NCBI GenBank assembly: GCA_937141995.1
Contig: CAKZQX010000743.1
Span: 1-11,364, forward strand
DNA: 11,364 bases
Direction of reading: 5' to 3'
Origin: an uncultured Chloroflexaceae bacterium
GTDB taxonomy: Bacteria > Chloroflexota > Chloroflexia > Chloroflexales > Chloroflexaceae
In this document: one piece after another, positions 6,046-11,364 of the stretch
How positions within the stretch are numbered: position 1 is the first letter of the stretch
How the letters are laid out: each line of letters begins with the position of its first letter
Made by a program: the position numbers and the translations under genes
The notes under the pieces: generated by a model
The model's input: the letters and a program-made list of their open reading frames with translations, nothing else
Database searches by the model: none
Told to the model about the DNA's origin: nothing

Positions 6046-6381
6046 TTAGCGTTTTTGGATTAGCAGACGGATAGCAGTGCGCTCCTCCTGATCGATGGCG
6101 ACATCGATGAAGGATGGAACACACACGATATCAATTCCATCTTCGCTAAGGTAGCTACGCGCAATCGCGATGGCTTTGATGGCCTGATTAACGGCCCCCG
6201 CACCAATAGACTGAACCTCCGCAACACCGGTTTCCCGGATAACACCGGCAATAGCACCGGCAACTGCGCTTGGTCGCGAGCGGGTCGAAACCCGTAGCAA
6301 ATCCTCCTTATTACCTTCGACAAGCTGGATTGCATCATCACCAACAGTGCGAGCGAGATTTGATGATCGGACGGTTTGCAT
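6046..6381 (-). CDS. spoVS: SpoVS family protein
   Basis: The protein has 111 residues from the chosen start. Its core matches stage V sporulation protein S: LLRVSTRSRPSAVAGAIAGV, then IQSIGAGAVNQAIKAIAIAR-like text (here VQSIGAGAVNQAIKAIAIAR), and IDIVCVPSFIDVAIDQEERTAI near the end. SpoVS is a small Alba-fold-like protein that in Bacillus affects septation and spore coat formation. It also occurs in non-sporulating bacteria with unknown or nucleic-acid-related roles. The start at 6381 follows AGGAGG with a 5-base spacer. An earlier in-frame start would add 23 residues (beginning MGLARQ) but lacks a ribosome-binding site. About 24 residues before the core are longer than in typical SpoVS. 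The gene is convergent with the ParA operon. Confidence 0.92.
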   Translation of the reverse strand: MQTVRSSNLARTVGDDAIQLVEGNKEDLLRVSTRSRPSAVAGAIAGVIRETGVAEVQSIGAGAVNQAIKAIAIARSYLSEDGIDIVCVPSFIDVAIDQEERTAIRLLIQKR

Positions 6382-6450
6382 ACGTTCCTCCTCTTTCTTT
6401 AGGAACACCGTGTACACCATTGATACTCGGCATTGACGGGCCAAACCCAT

Positions 6451-6660
6451 ACTAACAATGTTATACTGCGAAGATCATCTGCTACCTGGTGTGTTGCTAC
6501 TACTCCACGTACCTGGATGACCTGGATTCTATAGAGCAAGAACCGTGCCACTGTTGTAAGGATATACCCTCGCTGCCAAATGAACCCTTGTATAGTTGAA
6601 ACTTCAGTGACACTGGTACTTACCCGGGCAACACGGCACTCCCTACCCACCAAAGTGGTT
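6451..6660. other. Intergenic region upstream of spoVS, no gene seen
   Basis: This AT-richer, low-coding stretch should hold the minus-strand spoVS promoter, but no hexamer pair is convincing (only an isolated TATAAC read on the minus strand at about 6461). ACCTGG occurs three times (6484, 6511 and 6520), the last two as a 9-base tandem repeat ACCTGGATG/ACCTGGATT. The open frame running through it on the minus strand lacks a ribosome-binding site and any family resemblance. Confidence 0.4.
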
Positions 6661-6666
6661 TTCAGG

Positions 6667-6672
6667 TATAAT
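6667..6672 (+). promoter_or_regulatory. Candidate -10 box (TATAAT) of the pterin operon
   Basis: A perfect TATAAT is present, but the region 17 bases upstream has no good -35; it contains a small palindrome CCACCAAAGTGG instead. This suggests an activator-dependent or alternative promoter. A start near 6679 would leave a leader of about 185 bases before the PTPS start codon. Confidence 0.45.
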
Positions 6673-6679
6673 GATTCGT

Positions 6680-6704
6680 GGGTTTGGTAATTTTTGCCAA
6701 ACCC
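6680..6704 (+). repeat. Perfect 8-bp inverted repeat at the presumed transcription start
   Basis: GGGTTTGG (6680..6687) and CCAAACCC (6697..6704) flank TAATTTTTG. The repeat begins at the predicted first transcribed base, so it could be an operator overlapping the start site or a 5'-terminal RNA hairpin that stabilises the message. The structure is seen; the function is inferred. Confidence 0.5.
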
Positions 6705-6800
6705 TGGTTGGATCGTAAAGAATACCATAGCACAACAGCGCTGAATATGCAATGAGCAATATCATAACATTTAGCTGAAACTGTTCACAAAAATTTAATC

Positions 6801-6863
6801 AGGAAGGAGCAGAGGGCGACTGACCACGTCGCTTGCGACGGTGGCATGTAAGGCCCGTTTTTT
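6801..6863 (+). promoter_or_regulatory. Structured leader directly before the PTPS start codon (attenuator-like)
   Basis: A purine-rich AGGAAGGAG (6801..6809) is followed by an outer 4-bp stem GGGC (6814..6817) with GCCC (6853..6856). This encloses a strong hairpin, CCACGTCG (6824..6831), loop CTTG, CGACGGTGG (6836..6844), paired along 8 bp with one bulged G. Six T (6858..6863) follow at once and abut the ATG at 6864. This has the shape of an intrinsic terminator placed immediately upstream of the first codon. The Shine-Dalgarno-like AGGAAGGAG would come near the start codon only when the stem is folded. Confidence 0.5.
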
Positions 6864-7673
6864 ATGGTGTACGCAACCCGCCGCTTCGAATTTTCTGCGT
6901 CACATCGTTATTGGCGCGATGACTGGAGTACGGAGCAGAACGAGCGTGTCTTTGGGAAATGTACCAGTCGCTATGGGCATGGGCACAACTACACGCTGGA
7001 TGTGACCATTACCGGGCAGGTTGACCCGATCACAGGCATGATTATGAACATGGCCGACCTGAAGGCACTCGTCAATGAGGTGCTGGAGGCATTTGATCAT
7101 AAACATCTAAATGAAGATACGCCCTACTTCAAGGAGCAGATCCCGACAACCGAAAATATTGTGCGGGTTCTGTGGCAACTGATCGCTCCCCGATTGCCGG
7201 AAGGCGTGGTGCCGGCGCGGCTGCGGCTTTATGAAATGGCTGATCTCTGGGCCGAGTATGACGGTACAGCGGAGACGCGCTTTTCCCGCTCGTATGGTTT
7301 CTCGGCGGCTCATCGGTTGCATGCGCCGGCGCTCTCTCCGGATGAGAATGTGGCGATCTATGGCAAGTGTAACAATCCCAATGGTCACGGACACAACTAC
7401 ACGCTTGAGGTGACGGTTTCCGGTCCGGTGGATGCGACAACCGGCATGGTTGTTGATCTGCTGGCCCTGGATCGGAACGTGCGCAGTCTCCTTGATCAAC
7501 TCGATCATACCCATCTTGATCAGGAGGTCAGCGCGTTTCAGTCCCGGCCCTCGACTGCCGAAAATATTGTTGTCTACCTCTGGGATGCGTTAGCGCCGCG
7601 CCTGATGGGTCGTCTGGTTCATCTCCGGCTCTGGGAGACAAAAAAGAACATTTTTGAATATGCAGGTGTGTAA
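6864..7673 (+). CDS. Tandem 6-pyruvoyl-tetrahydropterin synthase (two fused PTPS domains)
   Basis: The 269-residue protein consists of two PTPS/QueD-fold domains (about 1-133 and 137-269), whereas the usual enzyme has one of about 120-145 residues. PTPS converts dihydroneopterin triphosphate to 6-pyruvoyl-tetrahydropterin. Both active sites look complete. Domain 1 has zinc ligands H14, H39 and H41, catalytic C33, the D78-H79 pair and E124. Domain 2 has H150, H175 and H177, C169, D214-H215 and E258. In each domain the spacing is C-x5-HGH (CTSRYGHGH, CNNPNGHGH), the pattern of animal PTPS making biopterin, rather than the C-x3-HGH of queuosine QueD. Domain 2 (YGKCNNPNGHGHNY) is strikingly animal-like. 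The start has only a poor Shine-Dalgarno (AAGG, 10-base spacer). It heads an operon with folE. Confidence 0.9.
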   Translation: MVYATRRFEFSASHRYWRDDWSTEQNERVFGKCTSRYGHGHNYTLDVTITGQVDPITGMIMNMADLKALVNEVLEAFDHKHLNEDTPYFKEQIPTTENIVRVLWQLIAPRLPEGVVPARLRLYEMADLWAEYDGTAETRFSRSYGFSAAHRLHAPALSPDENVAIYGKCNNPNGHGHNYTLEVTVSGPVDATTGMVVDLLALDRNVRSLLDQLDHTHLDQEVSAFQSRPSTAENIVVYLWDALAPRLMGRLVHLRLWETKKNIFEYAGV

Positions 7674-7731
7674 TATCCCTGCCCGGTTATTTTGTGCGTT
7701 ATGTTCGTGTGGCTCTGTTTGAAACTGGAGA

Positions 7732-8436
7732 ATGGATAGACGAATGAAAACGAATGGTACAACACAACAGTTACATCCTGATCAGCGCGATCTGGATTTT
7801 GATCTCGCCGCGTATCCCGACCTGGTTATGCCCGGACGGGGGAAGCTGGAAGGGTTGACCTTTGAGACGAACCAGCAGATCGAAGACGCGGTGCGCAATA
7901 TCCTGGAGGCGGTCCACGAGAACCCGGAGCGCGAAGGGTTGCTCAAAACTCCCGGCCGGGTGGCCCGAATGTATGCGGAGTTGACCGCCGGCTACCAGAT
8001 TGATCCTGAGGCGTTGATTAATGATGCGGTCTTTCGTGTCGATTATGATGAAATGGTTCTGGTTCGGGAGATTGACTTCTACAGCCTGTGCGAGCATCAT
8101 ATGCTGCCCTTCATGGGGCGCGTGCATGTGGCCTATATTCCCAACGGCAAGGTGCTGGGGTTGAGCAAGATCCCGCGTATTGTTGAAACCTATGCCCGGC
8201 GGCTCCAGGTGCAGGAACGTATGACCGTTCAGATCGCGGACTTTATCAACAACGCGCTGCATCCGCAGGGTGTGGCCGTCGTCGCCGAAGGCGTGCATAT
8301 GTGCGCGGTGATGCGGGGCGTGAAGAAGGCCAACGCCCGAATGACCACTTCGGCGATGCGCGGGGTTTTTCGCAGCGACTCGAAAACCCGCGCCGAGTTT
8401 ATGAGCCATCTCCAGCGATCCTACGATTTTGAGTAG
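7732..8436 (+). CDS. folE: GTP cyclohydrolase I
   Basis: FolE opens the imidazole ring of GTP and makes 7,8-dihydroneopterin triphosphate, the substrate of the preceding PTPS. The 234-residue product has a variable N-terminal stretch of about 45 residues and then the catalytic core. Landmarks are [17 protein letters not shown] (65-81), [10 protein letters not shown] (118-127) with zinc ligands C120 and H123, [20 protein letters not shown] (143-162), and HMCAVMRGV (189-197) with zinc ligand C191. This is the canonical zinc-dependent type IA enzyme. The ATG at 7732 has GGAG only one base upstream, which is too close. The in-frame ATG at 7744 has the same GGAG 13 bases away. The start is therefore uncertain by four residues. 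It lies 58 bases after PTPS and overlaps possible upstream starts of the reductase gene. Confidence 0.95.
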
Positions 8437-8458
8437 TTTGAATACCCTGGGGGATGCT

Positions 8459-9175
8459 GTGGAGAATCTATCAAATCCGCGCGTAAGCGTGGTCGCCGGC
8501 GCATCGCGTGGCATTGGTCGGGCAACCGCGTTGGCGCTGTCCGGGGCAGGACAGCATCTGGTCCTGGCGGCGCGGTCGGTGCCGGCGCTTGAGGCGCTGG
8601 CGGCTGAGACACGCGCGGCCGGGGCGGCTGTCACCGTTGTTCCCGGTGATGTCACCGACGAACACTATGTGCAGCAACTGATGCAGACCGCCGCGCAGGT
8701 GACGGGCCGGATTGATCTGCTGGTCAACAGTGTGGGTGGGGCAATTGTTGCGCCGTTTGATGAGCTTGCGTCGGCTGACTGGGAGGCGACCCTGCGCACC
8801 GTGCTGACCAGTACCTTCCTGACCTGCAAGTATGCCGTGGCGCATATGTCGGCGGGTGCGCTGATTGTCAATGTGGCCTCGGTCGCCGCGCGCCAGCCGT
8901 TTCCCACCTGGTCGGCCTATGTTGCGGCCAAGTATGGCGTGCTCGGTTTCTCCAATACTATCCGCGAGGAGTTGCGCCCGCGCGGAGTGCGCGTGACTAC
9001 CGTCCTGCCCGCCGCCACCGATACGGTGCTGTGGGACGCAATTCCCGGCACCTGGAACCGCGCCAATATGCTTCAGCCGGAGGATGTGGCCCGGGCAATT
9101 GCCCAGCTTGCCGCGCAACCGCCGCATGTGACGACGGAGGAGATCGCGTTGGGACATGTGATTGGACGGTTATAA
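8459..9175 (+). CDS. Short-chain dehydrogenase/reductase, sepiapterin-reductase-like by context
   Basis: This 238-residue classical SDR uses a Rossmann fold to bind NADPH. Numbered from a TTG at 8429 (used for the residue positions here), the nucleotide loop is GASRGIG (24-30). An arginine after the second strand (AARS, 47-50) suggests NADPH. NSVGG (100-104) replaces the usual NNAG. The catalytic residues are S151, Y164 and K168 (WSAYVAAK). The helix-4 asparagine of the SDR tetrad appears to be valine (TVLTSTF). I prefer the GTG start at 8459, which has GGGGGA four bases upstream; the TTG at 8429 lies inside folE without a ribosome-binding site. In the biopterin pathway the reductase after PTPS is an SDR, so position suggests pterin side-chain reduction. 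The substrate is not proven. Confidence 0.88.
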   Translation: MENLSNPRVSVVAGASRGIGRATALALSGAGQHLVLAARSVPALEALAAETRAAGAAVTVVPGDVTDEHYVQQLMQTAAQVTGRIDLLVNSVGGAIVAPFDELASADWEATLRTVLTSTFLTCKYAVAHMSAGALIVNVASVAARQPFPTWSAYVAAKYGVLGFSNTIREELRPRGVRVTTVLPAATDTVLWDAIPGTWNRANMLQPEDVARAIAQLAAQPPHVTTEEIALGHVIGRL

Positions 9176-9177
9176 CC

Positions 9178-10038
9178 ATGAGCAACCTGACGCAACGTAT
9201 CCGGCTGCACTATAACCTGCTTGCGCCGTTTTACTACGGTCTGTGGGGGCAGCATGTGCATCATGGCTTCTGGGAGGACGCCGGAGACGGGGCATCCCAG
9301 GCCGAGGCGCAGGAGCGCCTGATCCGCGAACTCTACCGCTTCGGGGGCAGTCCACCGCACCCGGCCCTGCTGGATGTGGGCTGCGGCTATGGCGGCTCGC
9401 TGCTCTGGCTGGCGCGCAACGTTGGGGCGCAGGGATTGGGCATTACACTCAGCCCGTTGCAGCGGTGGATTGGTCAGGTGAAGATCCGGCGGGCCCGGTT
9501 CCAGCCGCGTGTGCGGATCGCCGTTGCCGATGCCCAGCAGCGCTGGCCGCTGCCCGACGCAAGCGTCGATCTGGTCTGGTGCGTGGAGTGCAGTGAACAT
9601 CTGGTGGATCGGTCCCACTTTGCGCGGGAGGCGCACCGGGTGCTGCGTCCGGGCGGTCGCTTATGCCTGGCGGCCTGGCTGGCGGGTCCGGCCACGACCC
9701 CGGAGGCACTGGCGCTGCGACAGACGGTTGAGCAGGGGATGCTCTGCTACCCCTTCAGCTCGGCAGAGGAGTATGCCCGCTGGTTTACGGAAGCCGGGCT
9801 GGAGGCCGTCCAGAGCCGGATTATCACGCCGCATGTGGTTCGCACCTGGGATATCTGCATTGGCTTTCGTAATCGACCGCTGTTACGCCGGGCGGCGGCG
9901 CTGATCGGTGGGGATGTCCAGGCTTTCACCGCGTCATTTACGGCGCTACGACAGGCTTACGCCGAGGGCGCAATGGAGTATGGCCTCTTCACGGCTCGTC
10001 GCGCTGTTGGTGCAGTGGAAGAGGCTCCGTCTTCTTAA
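9178..10038 (+). CDS. SAM-dependent methyltransferase, gamma-tocopherol methyltransferase-like
   Basis: The 286-residue class I methyltransferase has motif I LLDVGCGYGG (64-73), GLGITLSPLQ after the second strand, and a later VLRPGGRLCLAAW. The N-terminal LHYNLLAPFYYGLWGQHVHHGFW (10-32) resembles the conserved entry of the tocopherol/MPBQ and sterol methyltransferase group (family knowledge). The ATG at 9178 lies 2 bases after the SDR stop, which indicates coupling. An in-frame ATG at 9031 would overlap the SDR by 145 bases and is rejected. The methyl acceptor is unknown. Genomic context suggests a pterin product, while sequence resemblance suggests a chromanol or quinone. The stop codon lies inside a 16-base repeat that also occurs at 10250..10265. 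Confidence 0.85.
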   Translation: MSNLTQRIRLHYNLLAPFYYGLWGQHVHHGFWEDAGDGASQAEAQERLIRELYRFGGSPPHPALLDVGCGYGGSLLWLARNVGAQGLGITLSPLQRWIGQVKIRRARFQPRVRIAVADAQQRWPLPDASVDLVWCVECSEHLVDRSHFAREAHRVLRPGGRLCLAAWLAGPATTPEALALRQTVEQGMLCYPFSSAEEYARWFTEAGLEAVQSRIITPHVVRTWDICIGFRNRPLLRRAAALIGGDVQAFTASFTALRQAYAEGAMEYGLFTARRAVGAVEEAPSS

Positions 10039-10246
10039 CAGGAGTTACGCGATCGGTTCCCAACCGGGTTGTTGCCGGGATGAATGGCCCGATGCGCCTC
10101 CGGCAGGGCGGAAGATCCCATGCTTTTCCACAAAACATGTGCATATGTTTTGTGGAAAAGAACAAATACGTACCATGCTGCCGCCGGCGAATCCGGCTTC
10201 CATCGGGTGAAACGTCCGGTTTGGATCTCCACCGCGTAATTCCTGT
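10038..10246. mobile_element. MITE-like palindromic element
   Basis: The 209-base element has 14-base terminal inverted repeats: ACAGGAGTTACGCG at 10038..10051 and its complement with one mismatch at 10233..10246. Its centre is a 16-bp perfect inverted repeat (10123..10138 and 10145..10160) around GTGCAT. The two arms are almost equal in length (101 and 102 bases). The middle parts of the arms match only patchily. It encodes no protein I can support, which fits a non-autonomous element or an insertion-sequence remnant. It lies between convergent genes. Confidence 0.5.
10123..10160. repeat. 16-bp perfect inverted repeat with 6-base loop
   Basis: CTTTTCCACAAAACAT (10123..10138) and ATGTTTTGTGGAAAAG (10145..10160) are exact complements. 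The stem is AT-rich, and neither strand has a clean T run after it. It might act as a bidirectional terminator between the methyltransferase gene and the DNA methylase gene, or it is the core of the surrounding element. Confidence 0.9.
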
Positions 10247-10271
10247 GAATAACAGGAGTTACGCGGTGGAG
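10227..10271. repeat. 20-bp hairpin (one G-T mismatch) with 5-base loop
   Basis: The arms 10227..10246 and 10252..10271 pair over 20 positions with a single G-T mismatch (T10240 against G10258) around the loop GAATA. The left arm contains the right terminus of the adjacent element, and the right arm repeats its terminus again (ACAGGAGTTACGCG, 10252..10265). It may serve as a terminator for either convergent gene, but no T run follows. Confidence 0.85.
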
Positions 10272-10377
10272 GGTTGGACTACGAACAATGCGAAATGAGC
10301 GAACACCGCGAAACGCCGGTGTGGCCCTGTATTCCGCGCTCGCGCGTTTGATAGAGGTAGTCTCCGGCAGGTATAGT
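10272..10377. other. Remaining convergent intergenic stretch
   Basis: No gene is seen. A 6-bp stem (ACACCG with CGGTGT) reads at about 10304..10323 and a CGCG-type stem at about 10336..10347. Both lie just past the DNA methylase stop in its direction of transcription, but no T run follows them. Confidence 0.35.
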
Positions 10378-11364
10378 CTATGCCGCTTTGTGCATCACCA
10401 GAATGCGTTCAACCTTGGTGGTGCGGGTGCGGCGACGGGTGCGGCGCTCGTCGGGGATATTGTCGTCGCAGATAAAATCGAAGACCAGCCGGCCATCCGT
10501 TGCGGTAATGGCGGTATCACGTAGAATCTCGGCAGTGCGGTCCAGCCGTCCGTCGCGCTCCACGTCACCCAGAACGAGGACACAGTAGCCATCGGGACGT
10601 AACAGGCGCTCCATCTCACGCAAACAGCGCGTTATCTGTGGAATATACACTTTGCGGTTGGCCGTCAGCGATTGATCGAGTTGCTTCCAGTCGGTGCATC
10701 CCAAAAACCAGAGCCTGAGGCGGTTATCCCGCGCATAATCCAACGCCCCGAAGTAGGGCGGAGAAGAGATAATCGTATCCACCGACGCGTCGTCTACCGG
10801 AAACTCCATCGCATTTGTCCGCCAGAGATGATACTGCCGTTGCGACCAGTCCGCCGGCAATGCCGGTCGCTTGTAGGCCCGGTGTACCTTGGCAATTAAC
10901 CGCGAGCGCAGATCCCGGTAGGTGTACAGTTCGGGATACTTCTCCGGCGGAAACATGTTCACGCGAACATAGGGTACCAGGTGACTCGAGGGAAACGAGA
11001 GAAAACCCGGGCGCTGATGATGCAGAATGCCCAGCAGACATCCCATGAGAAAGTAGTTTTCGCGGGCGTGCAGCAACGCGAAAGCCGCCAGGATCTCGCG
11101 CAGGGTGTTCGGATGGAAGAAGCTGCGCACCCATTCGGGTACGGCATCGATGTCAACGTCGGGGGCAGCCAGTTCGACCGCGTCGAGGAGGTCAAGCGCA
11201 TGTTCCAGCGCCGTGGAAAGATCGGTGGGCGCAGCCAGTTTGGCCCGGGTCAGGACATAGGCATAGGGGCTGAGATCATTGGCCCAGGCAACCCGGCCGG
11301 CAAGCGCGGCCTCTAACGGAACCACCCCCGAACCGCAGAATGGATCAAGCACAACCTGGCCGGG
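10378..11364 (-). CDS. DNA methylase (N6-adenine/N4-cytosine type), C-terminal part
   Basis: Reading enters from the right edge with PGQVVLDPFCGSGVVPLEAA, the SAM-binding motif I (DPFCGSG), followed by WANDLSPYAYVL, motif II. Motif IV, IISSPPYFGALDY, comes about 190 residues later, and a RLLRPDGYCVLVLGDV strand follows. The order is SAM-binding then catalytic. SPPY is typical of N4-cytosine enzymes but also occurs in N6-adenine ones. The long spacer includes a probable target-recognition or helical segment (FFHPNTLREILAAFALLHAREN). The arginine-rich stretch RRTRRRTRTTK lies near the C-terminus. About 328 residues are visible; the N-terminus lies outside. No restriction enzyme is visible on this side. 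A Trm11-like RNA methylase is a less likely alternative. Confidence 0.85.
   Translation of the reverse strand, partial: PGQVVLDPFCGSGVVPLEAALAGRVAWANDLSPYAYVLTRAKLAAPTDLSTALEHALDLLDAVELAAPDVDIDAVPEWVRSFFHPNTLREILAAFALLHARENYFLMGCLLGILHHQRPGFLSFPSSHLVPYVRVNMFPPEKYPELYTYRDLRSRLIAKVHRAYKRPALPADWSQRQYHLWRTNAMEFPVDDASVDTIISSPPYFGALDYARDNRLRLWFLGCTDWKQLDQSLTANRKVYIPQITRCLREMERLLRPDGYCVLVLGDVERDGRLDRTAEILRDTAITATDGRLVFDFICDDNIPDERRTRRRTRTTKVERILVMHKAA

Follow-up and report, generated by a model that had tools for sequence, protein, structure and literature searches.

What does a compact pterin operon that ends in a methyltransferase gene produce, and does its last gene belong to the same pathway? 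The question is raised by an uncultured Chloroflexaceae bacterium in which a 6-pyruvoyl-tetrahydropterin synthase (PTPS), a GTP cyclohydrolase I (FolE), a short-chain dehydrogenase/reductase (SDR) and an S-adenosylmethionine (SAM)-dependent methyltransferase are encoded one after the other on contig CAKZQX010000743.1 (C743). The contig in its entirety, 11,364 nucleotides, is the stretch of DNA analysed here and is called the window; it belongs to the host assembly GCA_937141995.1 (G000; 5.42 Mb in 1122 contigs, 86% complete), and a congener genome (G004) is 93% complete. With moderate confidence, we favour as the best explanation of the whole the local representative of an old pterin operon that would make tetrahydrobiopterin, to which a methyltransferase has been added in this genus, probably co-expressed with the pathway rather than methylating its pterin. 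The operon comprises the following features:

6864-7673, plus strand: tandem two-domain PTPS (Pfam PTPS 4.4e-67, in two stretches)
6876-7265, plus strand: PTPS domain 1 (Pfam PTPS)
7284-7664, plus strand: PTPS domain 2 (Pfam PTPS)
7732-8436, plus strand: GTP cyclohydrolase I, FolE (Pfam GTP_cyclohydroI 1.1e-77; NCBIfam folE equivalog)
8429-9175, plus strand: SDR, a sepiapterin-reductase-like candidate for the last step (Pfam adh_short 1.7e-48)
9178-10038, plus strand: SAM-dependent methyltransferase of class I, fourth in the operon (Pfam Methyltransf_11 6.3e-21)

The coordinates, the plus strand and the gene order given in a preliminary description of this DNA are borne out by the positions of the open reading frames, and the Pfam and NCBIfam classes agree with it. 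PTPS and FolE are separated by 58 nt; the listed start of the SDR gene, a TTG at 8429, overlaps the folE stop (TTG at 8438 and GTG at 8459 being the alternatives), and the methyltransferase ATG at 9178 lies two bases 3' of the SDR stop, as had been described. The presence of two full PTPS domains in tandem is a feature that the description had left unmentioned.

The first three enzymes can be arranged into a route from GTP. FolE, which is matched by NCBIfam TIGR00063 at 255.3 bits against a cut-off of 181.6 and has one match each in G000 and G004, would convert GTP to dihydroneopterin triphosphate. This would then be converted to 6-pyruvoyl-tetrahydropterin by the fused PTPS, which is likewise encoded by one gene in each of the two genomes. 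The PTPS had been placed in the biopterin spacing class; indeed, CX5HGH spacing is found in both domains, the spacing of QueD being CX3HGH, and the catalytic Cys, the Asp-His pair and the three zinc His are all present in each of them. Domain 2 has its best solved match in the PTPS chain 1b66 (1.9e-35), while the solved matches of domain 1 are weaker (2oba, named a probable PTPS, 2.0e-14; the QueD chain 4ntm, 7.6e-11). The likeness to the animal enzymes 1b66 and 3i2b, which we take to be rat and human PTPS, thus covers CX5HGH, the zinc His, the Cys, the Asp-His pair and a Glu, in addition to the similarity over domain 2; in contrast to them, the window enzyme consists of two copies fused in one chain, and many of its tandem relatives retain just one composite active site of the two.

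The last step, the reduction of the side chain to a tetrahydrobiopterin whose erythro or threo form is not settled, would fall to the SDR, which likely performs a sepiapterin-reductase-like reaction. Sepiapterin reductase 2bd0, presumably the Chlorobium tepidum enzyme, is its fourth best solved match (2.2e-28). Over 32 orthologues, the catalytic residues S151, Y164 and K168 are conserved in at least 95%, a triad common to SDRs generally. In the Chlorobium enzyme, Phe99 and Trp196 form the sandwich that holds the pterin, and all 32 orthologues of the SDR have Trp where Trp196 aligns, but none has Phe where Phe99 does.

These genes recur together in the order. PTPS, FolE and SDR were each searched separately across its 82 genomes, linkage being defined as same strand and gaps under 1000 nt; in the order regions the core genes were re-called with tblastn, a first clustering having taken antisense shadow frames in many loci. 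The tandem PTPS is present in 44 of the 82 genomes (the G020 copy being in two pieces of different frame), with folE directly downstream on the same strand in all 44. The SDR gene follows folE in 39 of them, the host included; in four (G068, G062, G033 and G020) it lies on another contig, and in G050 no SDR match was obtained at 1e-30. With PTPS-folE-SDR present in 39 genomes, the arrangement is not due to chance, and on comparison of the genomes the three genes read as an old conserved operon of the order. The preliminary description had proposed the four-gene order for examination in relatives: the first three genes are conserved (39/44), but the methyltransferase follows the SDR in G000 and G004 only.

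Some loci depart from this arrangement. In G050 (locus L176), a gene from the cluster of RibD_C reductases stands directly after folE and possibly replaces the last step of the pathway. In L177 and L178 (G013 and G014), matches upstream of folE are confined to approximately the first 40 PTPS residues, and the tandem PTPS seems to have decayed. In L179 (G034), HPPK comes after folE together with an SDR resembling, by eye, pteridine reductase; this is a folate-type cluster with no tandem PTPS.

The core product is likely a tetrahydrobiopterin-type pterin. A dedicated pathway of this type had been preferred to folate or queuosine from the outset, and in G000 and G004 this preference is supported by PTPS-type spacing, by core conservation and by the non-detection of FolB, HPPK and QueC. 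In particular, none of the three gave a match in either genome, while across the order FolB was found in 25 of the 82 genomes, HPPK in 38 and QueC near full-length in four (51/82 at 1e-3, the rest partial); no search for folP and queE was made in the host assembly. The description had also stated that no folB, folK, folP, queC or queE lies beside the operon, and none was found among the ten window proteins covered by the Pfam scan, other reading frames having been left out. A single absence at 86% or 93% completeness could be a gap, and a joint absence in both genomes is less likely to be one.

The same distributions bear on the alternative that the PTPS serves queuosine as a QueD or substitutes for FolB in folate synthesis, in which case the operon would have no dedicated pterin product. 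This alternative can draw on the NCBIfam QueD equivalog TIGR03367, which matches the PTPS above its cut-off (126.4 vs 89.25 bits), and on the finding that FolB is missing from the matches in 33 of the 44 tandem-PTPS genomes with HPPK found in 23 of them, but it is very unlikely in view of the scarcity of near full-length QueC, the non-detection of QueC and HPPK in G000 and G004, and the PTPS-like cysteine spacing and domain 2 similarity. Moreover, in g3, 7 of the 8 genomes taken with PAH (phenylalanine hydroxylase) have the operon, and all 8 of the 8 with FolB also have it. Both the queuosine and the folate-bypass readings of the PTPS were thus tested and put aside on the distribution of FolB, QueC and HPPK.

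The tetrahydrobiopterin-type product is further suggested by the distribution of PAH, which uses a tetrahydropterin. PAH was found in 24 of the 82 genomes, of which 22 are among the 44 with the operon and two among the 38 others (Fisher 6e-6, a value that overstates independence owing to the relatedness of the genomes). No such tie to the operon is seen for HPPK (23/44 and 15/38) or FolB (11/44 and 14/38), and in 11 of the 44 operon genomes, the genus of the window among them, neither PAH, HPPK nor FolB was found. A PAH of Chloroflexus aurantiacus has been characterised (PMC3458870); on Chloroflexus and biopterin, nothing was found among openly licensed papers. The proposed route resembles the one by which Chlorobium tepidum and cyanobacteria make tetrahydrobiopterin, with GTP cyclohydrolase I, PTPS, sepiapterin reductase and a pteridine glycosyltransferase (PMC5683033, PMC3546692). 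Common to both are FolE, PTPS, an SDR like sepiapterin reductase and a pterin open to capping. In the order, however, the genes form one operon and the PTPS is a fused two-domain protein, and in the genus a methyltransferase, not a glycosyltransferase, comes next.

Along with the QueD equivalog match, other observations weigh against this reading of the core. Among the solved SDR matches, 4weo, 2ehd and 2jah outrank 2bd0; the position aligned with Phe99 of 2bd0 is Val (28/32) or Ile (4/32); 4weo, named an acetoin reductase, likewise has Trp at the Trp196 position; and the substrate of the SDR cannot be read from its sequence. In addition, neither G000 nor G004 gave a PAH match, other possible consumers being unsearched, and nitric oxide synthase had no match in the 82 genomes, G000 and G004 included. 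Since neither PAH nor nitric oxide synthase was detected in these two genomes, there is therefore room for a modified pterin as end product.

The two composite active sites of the fused PTPS are unequally conserved. The active site of rat PTPS reportedly joins the Cys of a subunit to the Asp-His of its neighbour (Ploom and colleagues, 1999); among openly licensed papers, nothing relevant was found on this intersubunit triad. When 34 tandem proteins were aligned (those of the fetched regions, loci L142-L182, and that of the window), the composite site formed by Cys169 of domain 2 and Asp78-His79 of domain 1 was intact in 34 of 34, and that formed by Cys33 and Asp214-His215 in 13 of 34. Seven of the 34 proteins lack a domain that would be complete on its own, and in the window PTPS both composite sites are intact. 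This unequal conservation therefore looks as if the fused enzyme keeps one composite site and leaves the other free to decay.

It remains to place the fourth gene. The closest solved matches of the methyltransferase are the D-glucose O-methyltransferase 6uv6 (6.8e-27, aligned over residues 11-229 of 286), the methyltransferase 3bus, which we take to be RebM (6.4e-24), and MitM (2.5e-17). The similarity to them begins at the N-terminal WGxxxHxGYW motif and extends as far as the His of xHxxDR, and the window enzyme differs from them in standing after a pterin operon. Over its catalytic domain it would thus belong with RebM-like natural-product methyltransferases, and quinone enzymes match weakly. 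Indeed, the UbiE/COQ5 Pfam match is weak (4.2e-05), the UbiE/MenG models of NCBIfam score well under their cut-offs (TIGR01934, 27.9 vs 158.35 bits) and UbiG-type structures match at 0.004. These values speak against the alternative that the gene encodes a tocopherol or quinone enzyme that lies near pterin genes purely by chance, which had been given as the competing reading and is suggested by one source, in which the name 'tocopherol O-methyltransferase' is given to many listed relatives, and by the motif WGxHVHHGYW, presumably typical of gamma-tocopherol methyltransferases.

The distribution of the family adds to this picture. Close relatives of the methyltransferase occur in three of the 82 genomes of the order, and at 1e-35 the class (158 genomes) yields five: G000, G004, G050, G092 and G093, two of which have the gene linked to the operon, at 2 nt behind the SDR in G000 and 25 nt in G004. 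In G050 the gene lies on a different contig from folE and PTPS, and in G092 (91% complete) and G093 (89%) it is present with no PTPS match. Among metagenomic proteins, P0002 to P0006 are 68-75% identical to it. From named records, 79 methyltransferase loci were fetched, several of them short; their neighbour clustering was dominated by high-GC shadow frames and was not used for counts. Among these loci, folE or PTPS was seen solely in L033, which is G004. A quick tree of 140 rows places the window enzyme in a clade of 42 rows (SH-aLRT 100) with the unlinked L034, L035, L036 and L040. Three of these, L034, L036 and L040, apparently come from the genomes already counted as G092, G093 and G050 and are hence no further cases. 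Read by eye, the neighbours at the four loci include ion antiporters, sensor genes and genes resembling nitroreductase and RecF, and no tocopherol- or pterin-like gene was recognised among them; nor was a quinone gene, and no search of the genome for tocopherol genes was made. The tocopherol reading gains no support from these loci; what it has left is an automatic name and a motif, and it is highly improbable.

All in all, the gene appears to be a genus-level addition to the end of the operon, encoding a small-molecule methyltransferase that is probably co-transcribed with the core. The link is not brand new, because the methyltransferases of G000 and G004 are 69% identical, much as the SDRs are (71%), both are tightly coupled to the operon and the genes that follow them differ between the two genomes; such coupling counts against the preferred reading. 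Upstream, two gene families are common to G000 and G004, and part of the synteny between them is therefore general.

Elsewhere in the order, the place behind the SDR is taken by diverse genes. An enoyl-reductase-like gene (PF13561, Pfam having been run on G027) follows at 13 nt in G024, 4 nt in G027 (with the longest start) and 86 nt in G026, and a Rieske protein gene at 10 nt in G070. In g32 a helix-turn-helix regulator and an ABC ATPase resembling SufC lie behind the SDR, in G028 a methyltransferase of the unrelated family PF04672 stands at a distance of at least 172 nt, and in family f3 a RibD_C reductase follows (by Pfam in G053 and G051, by cluster in G052, G054 and G055). The enoyl reductase and the SufC-like genes have no evident pterin role. 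Since the fourth slot elsewhere holds unrelated genes (PF13561, RibD_C, Rieske, GT4), tight position by itself is weak evidence of a shared pathway. Most likely the operon does not fix the substrate of the methyltransferase, and co-expression is a more probable explanation of its position than pterin methylation, because elsewhere the family lives without pterin genes.

The possibility that had drawn attention to the locus, a methylated pterin, has to be weighed on these grounds. The enzyme would in this case be the fourth of the pathway and would O-methylate a side-chain hydroxyl of tetrahydrobiopterin or an attached sugar, in a manner comparable to the sugar capping that is possible in other lineages. 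Adjacency in both genomes of the genus agrees with it, as does a best solved match named for a sugar, D-glucose. Natural precedents are also available: Synechocystis makes cyanopterin, a pterin conjugate whose sugar is 4-O-methylated (PMC3546692), and Chlorobium is described as glycosylating threo-tetrahydrobiopterin with N-acetylglucosamine (PMC5683033). Cyanopterin, however, contains 6-hydroxymethylpterin and not biopterin, its methyl group is on the sugar, and no gene link between it and the present system emerged in this analysis. Moreover, four of the five named clade loci (L034, just 5.2 kb long, L035, L036 and L040) are unlinked to folE or PTPS, G092 and G093 have no PTPS match, and genes without an evident pterin role stand equally close in other genomes (PF13561 in G024, Rieske in G070). 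On methylated pterins, openly licensed papers gave one archaeal review, which deals with corrinoid:pterin methyltransferases in C1 metabolism, enzymes of another kind; this carries little weight for the literature at large.

Glycosyltransferase genes near the operon have been counted on the same side. In L171 (G049, family f2), a GT4 gene lies on the operon strand with a four-base overlap at the SDR stop, and a GT4-type cluster is found near the operon in five f3 loci (G050, G051, G052, G053 and G055; L157, L158, L172, L173 and L176). These genes may be regarded as candidate pteridine glycosyltransferases, but those of f3 are on the opposite strand, and the best solved match of the G049 protein is PimA, the tetrahydrobiopterin glucosyltransferase 5zer matching at a mere 7.1e-12. 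A small-protein cluster, also on the opposite strand, is present near the operon in four f3 loci (G050, G052, G053 and G055), and its member in G055 is a pterin-4a-carbinolamine dehydratase (2.1e-27). The tie to PAH and the GT4, RibD_C and dehydratase neighbours fit a tetrahydrobiopterin-type product.

On this evidence, a methyltransferase that forms the fourth step of the pathway is tentative and on the whole unlikely, and it is doubtful that the genus caps its pterin by methylation, on a hydroxyl or on a sugar, to obtain a methylated tetrahydropterin for a use other than amino acid hydroxylation. For the methylated pterin as first put forward, the outcome is mixed: the gene is linked to folE and PTPS in G000 and G004, but it is unlinked in G050 and occurs with no PTPS match in G092 and G093. 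Activity on a pterin is thus the less probable option, and the reading of a tetrahydrobiopterin operon with a co-expressed methyltransferase is preferred. If the enzyme did act on the pterin, this would be a new form of tetrahydrobiopterin capping among bacteria; if it acts elsewhere, it is a warning not to read gene distance alone as pathway membership in this order. In either case, a dedicated operon of the tetrahydrobiopterin type would be retained in 44 of the 82 genomes, and PAH is detected in half of these (22/44).

The surroundings of the operon hold a few further features. An Rfam scan of the window gave no match, and a terminator scan of 6400-10420 found none behind the methyltransferase, its one site in total (8156-8175, inside folE) comparing with 3.3 expected by chance. 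Behind the operon, strong hairpins are seen at 10123-10160 and 10227-10271, together with a 16-base repeat at 10036 and 10250, and the region 10036-10271 could be a small repeat element or a terminator. At the contig end, a DNA methylase-like protein (UPF0020 and N6_N4_Mtase matches) is encoded on the minus strand at 10378-11352, convergent with the operon. Upstream, at 6046-6450 on the minus strand, lies a SpoVS-like gene, a family that is also found upstream of the operon in G004.

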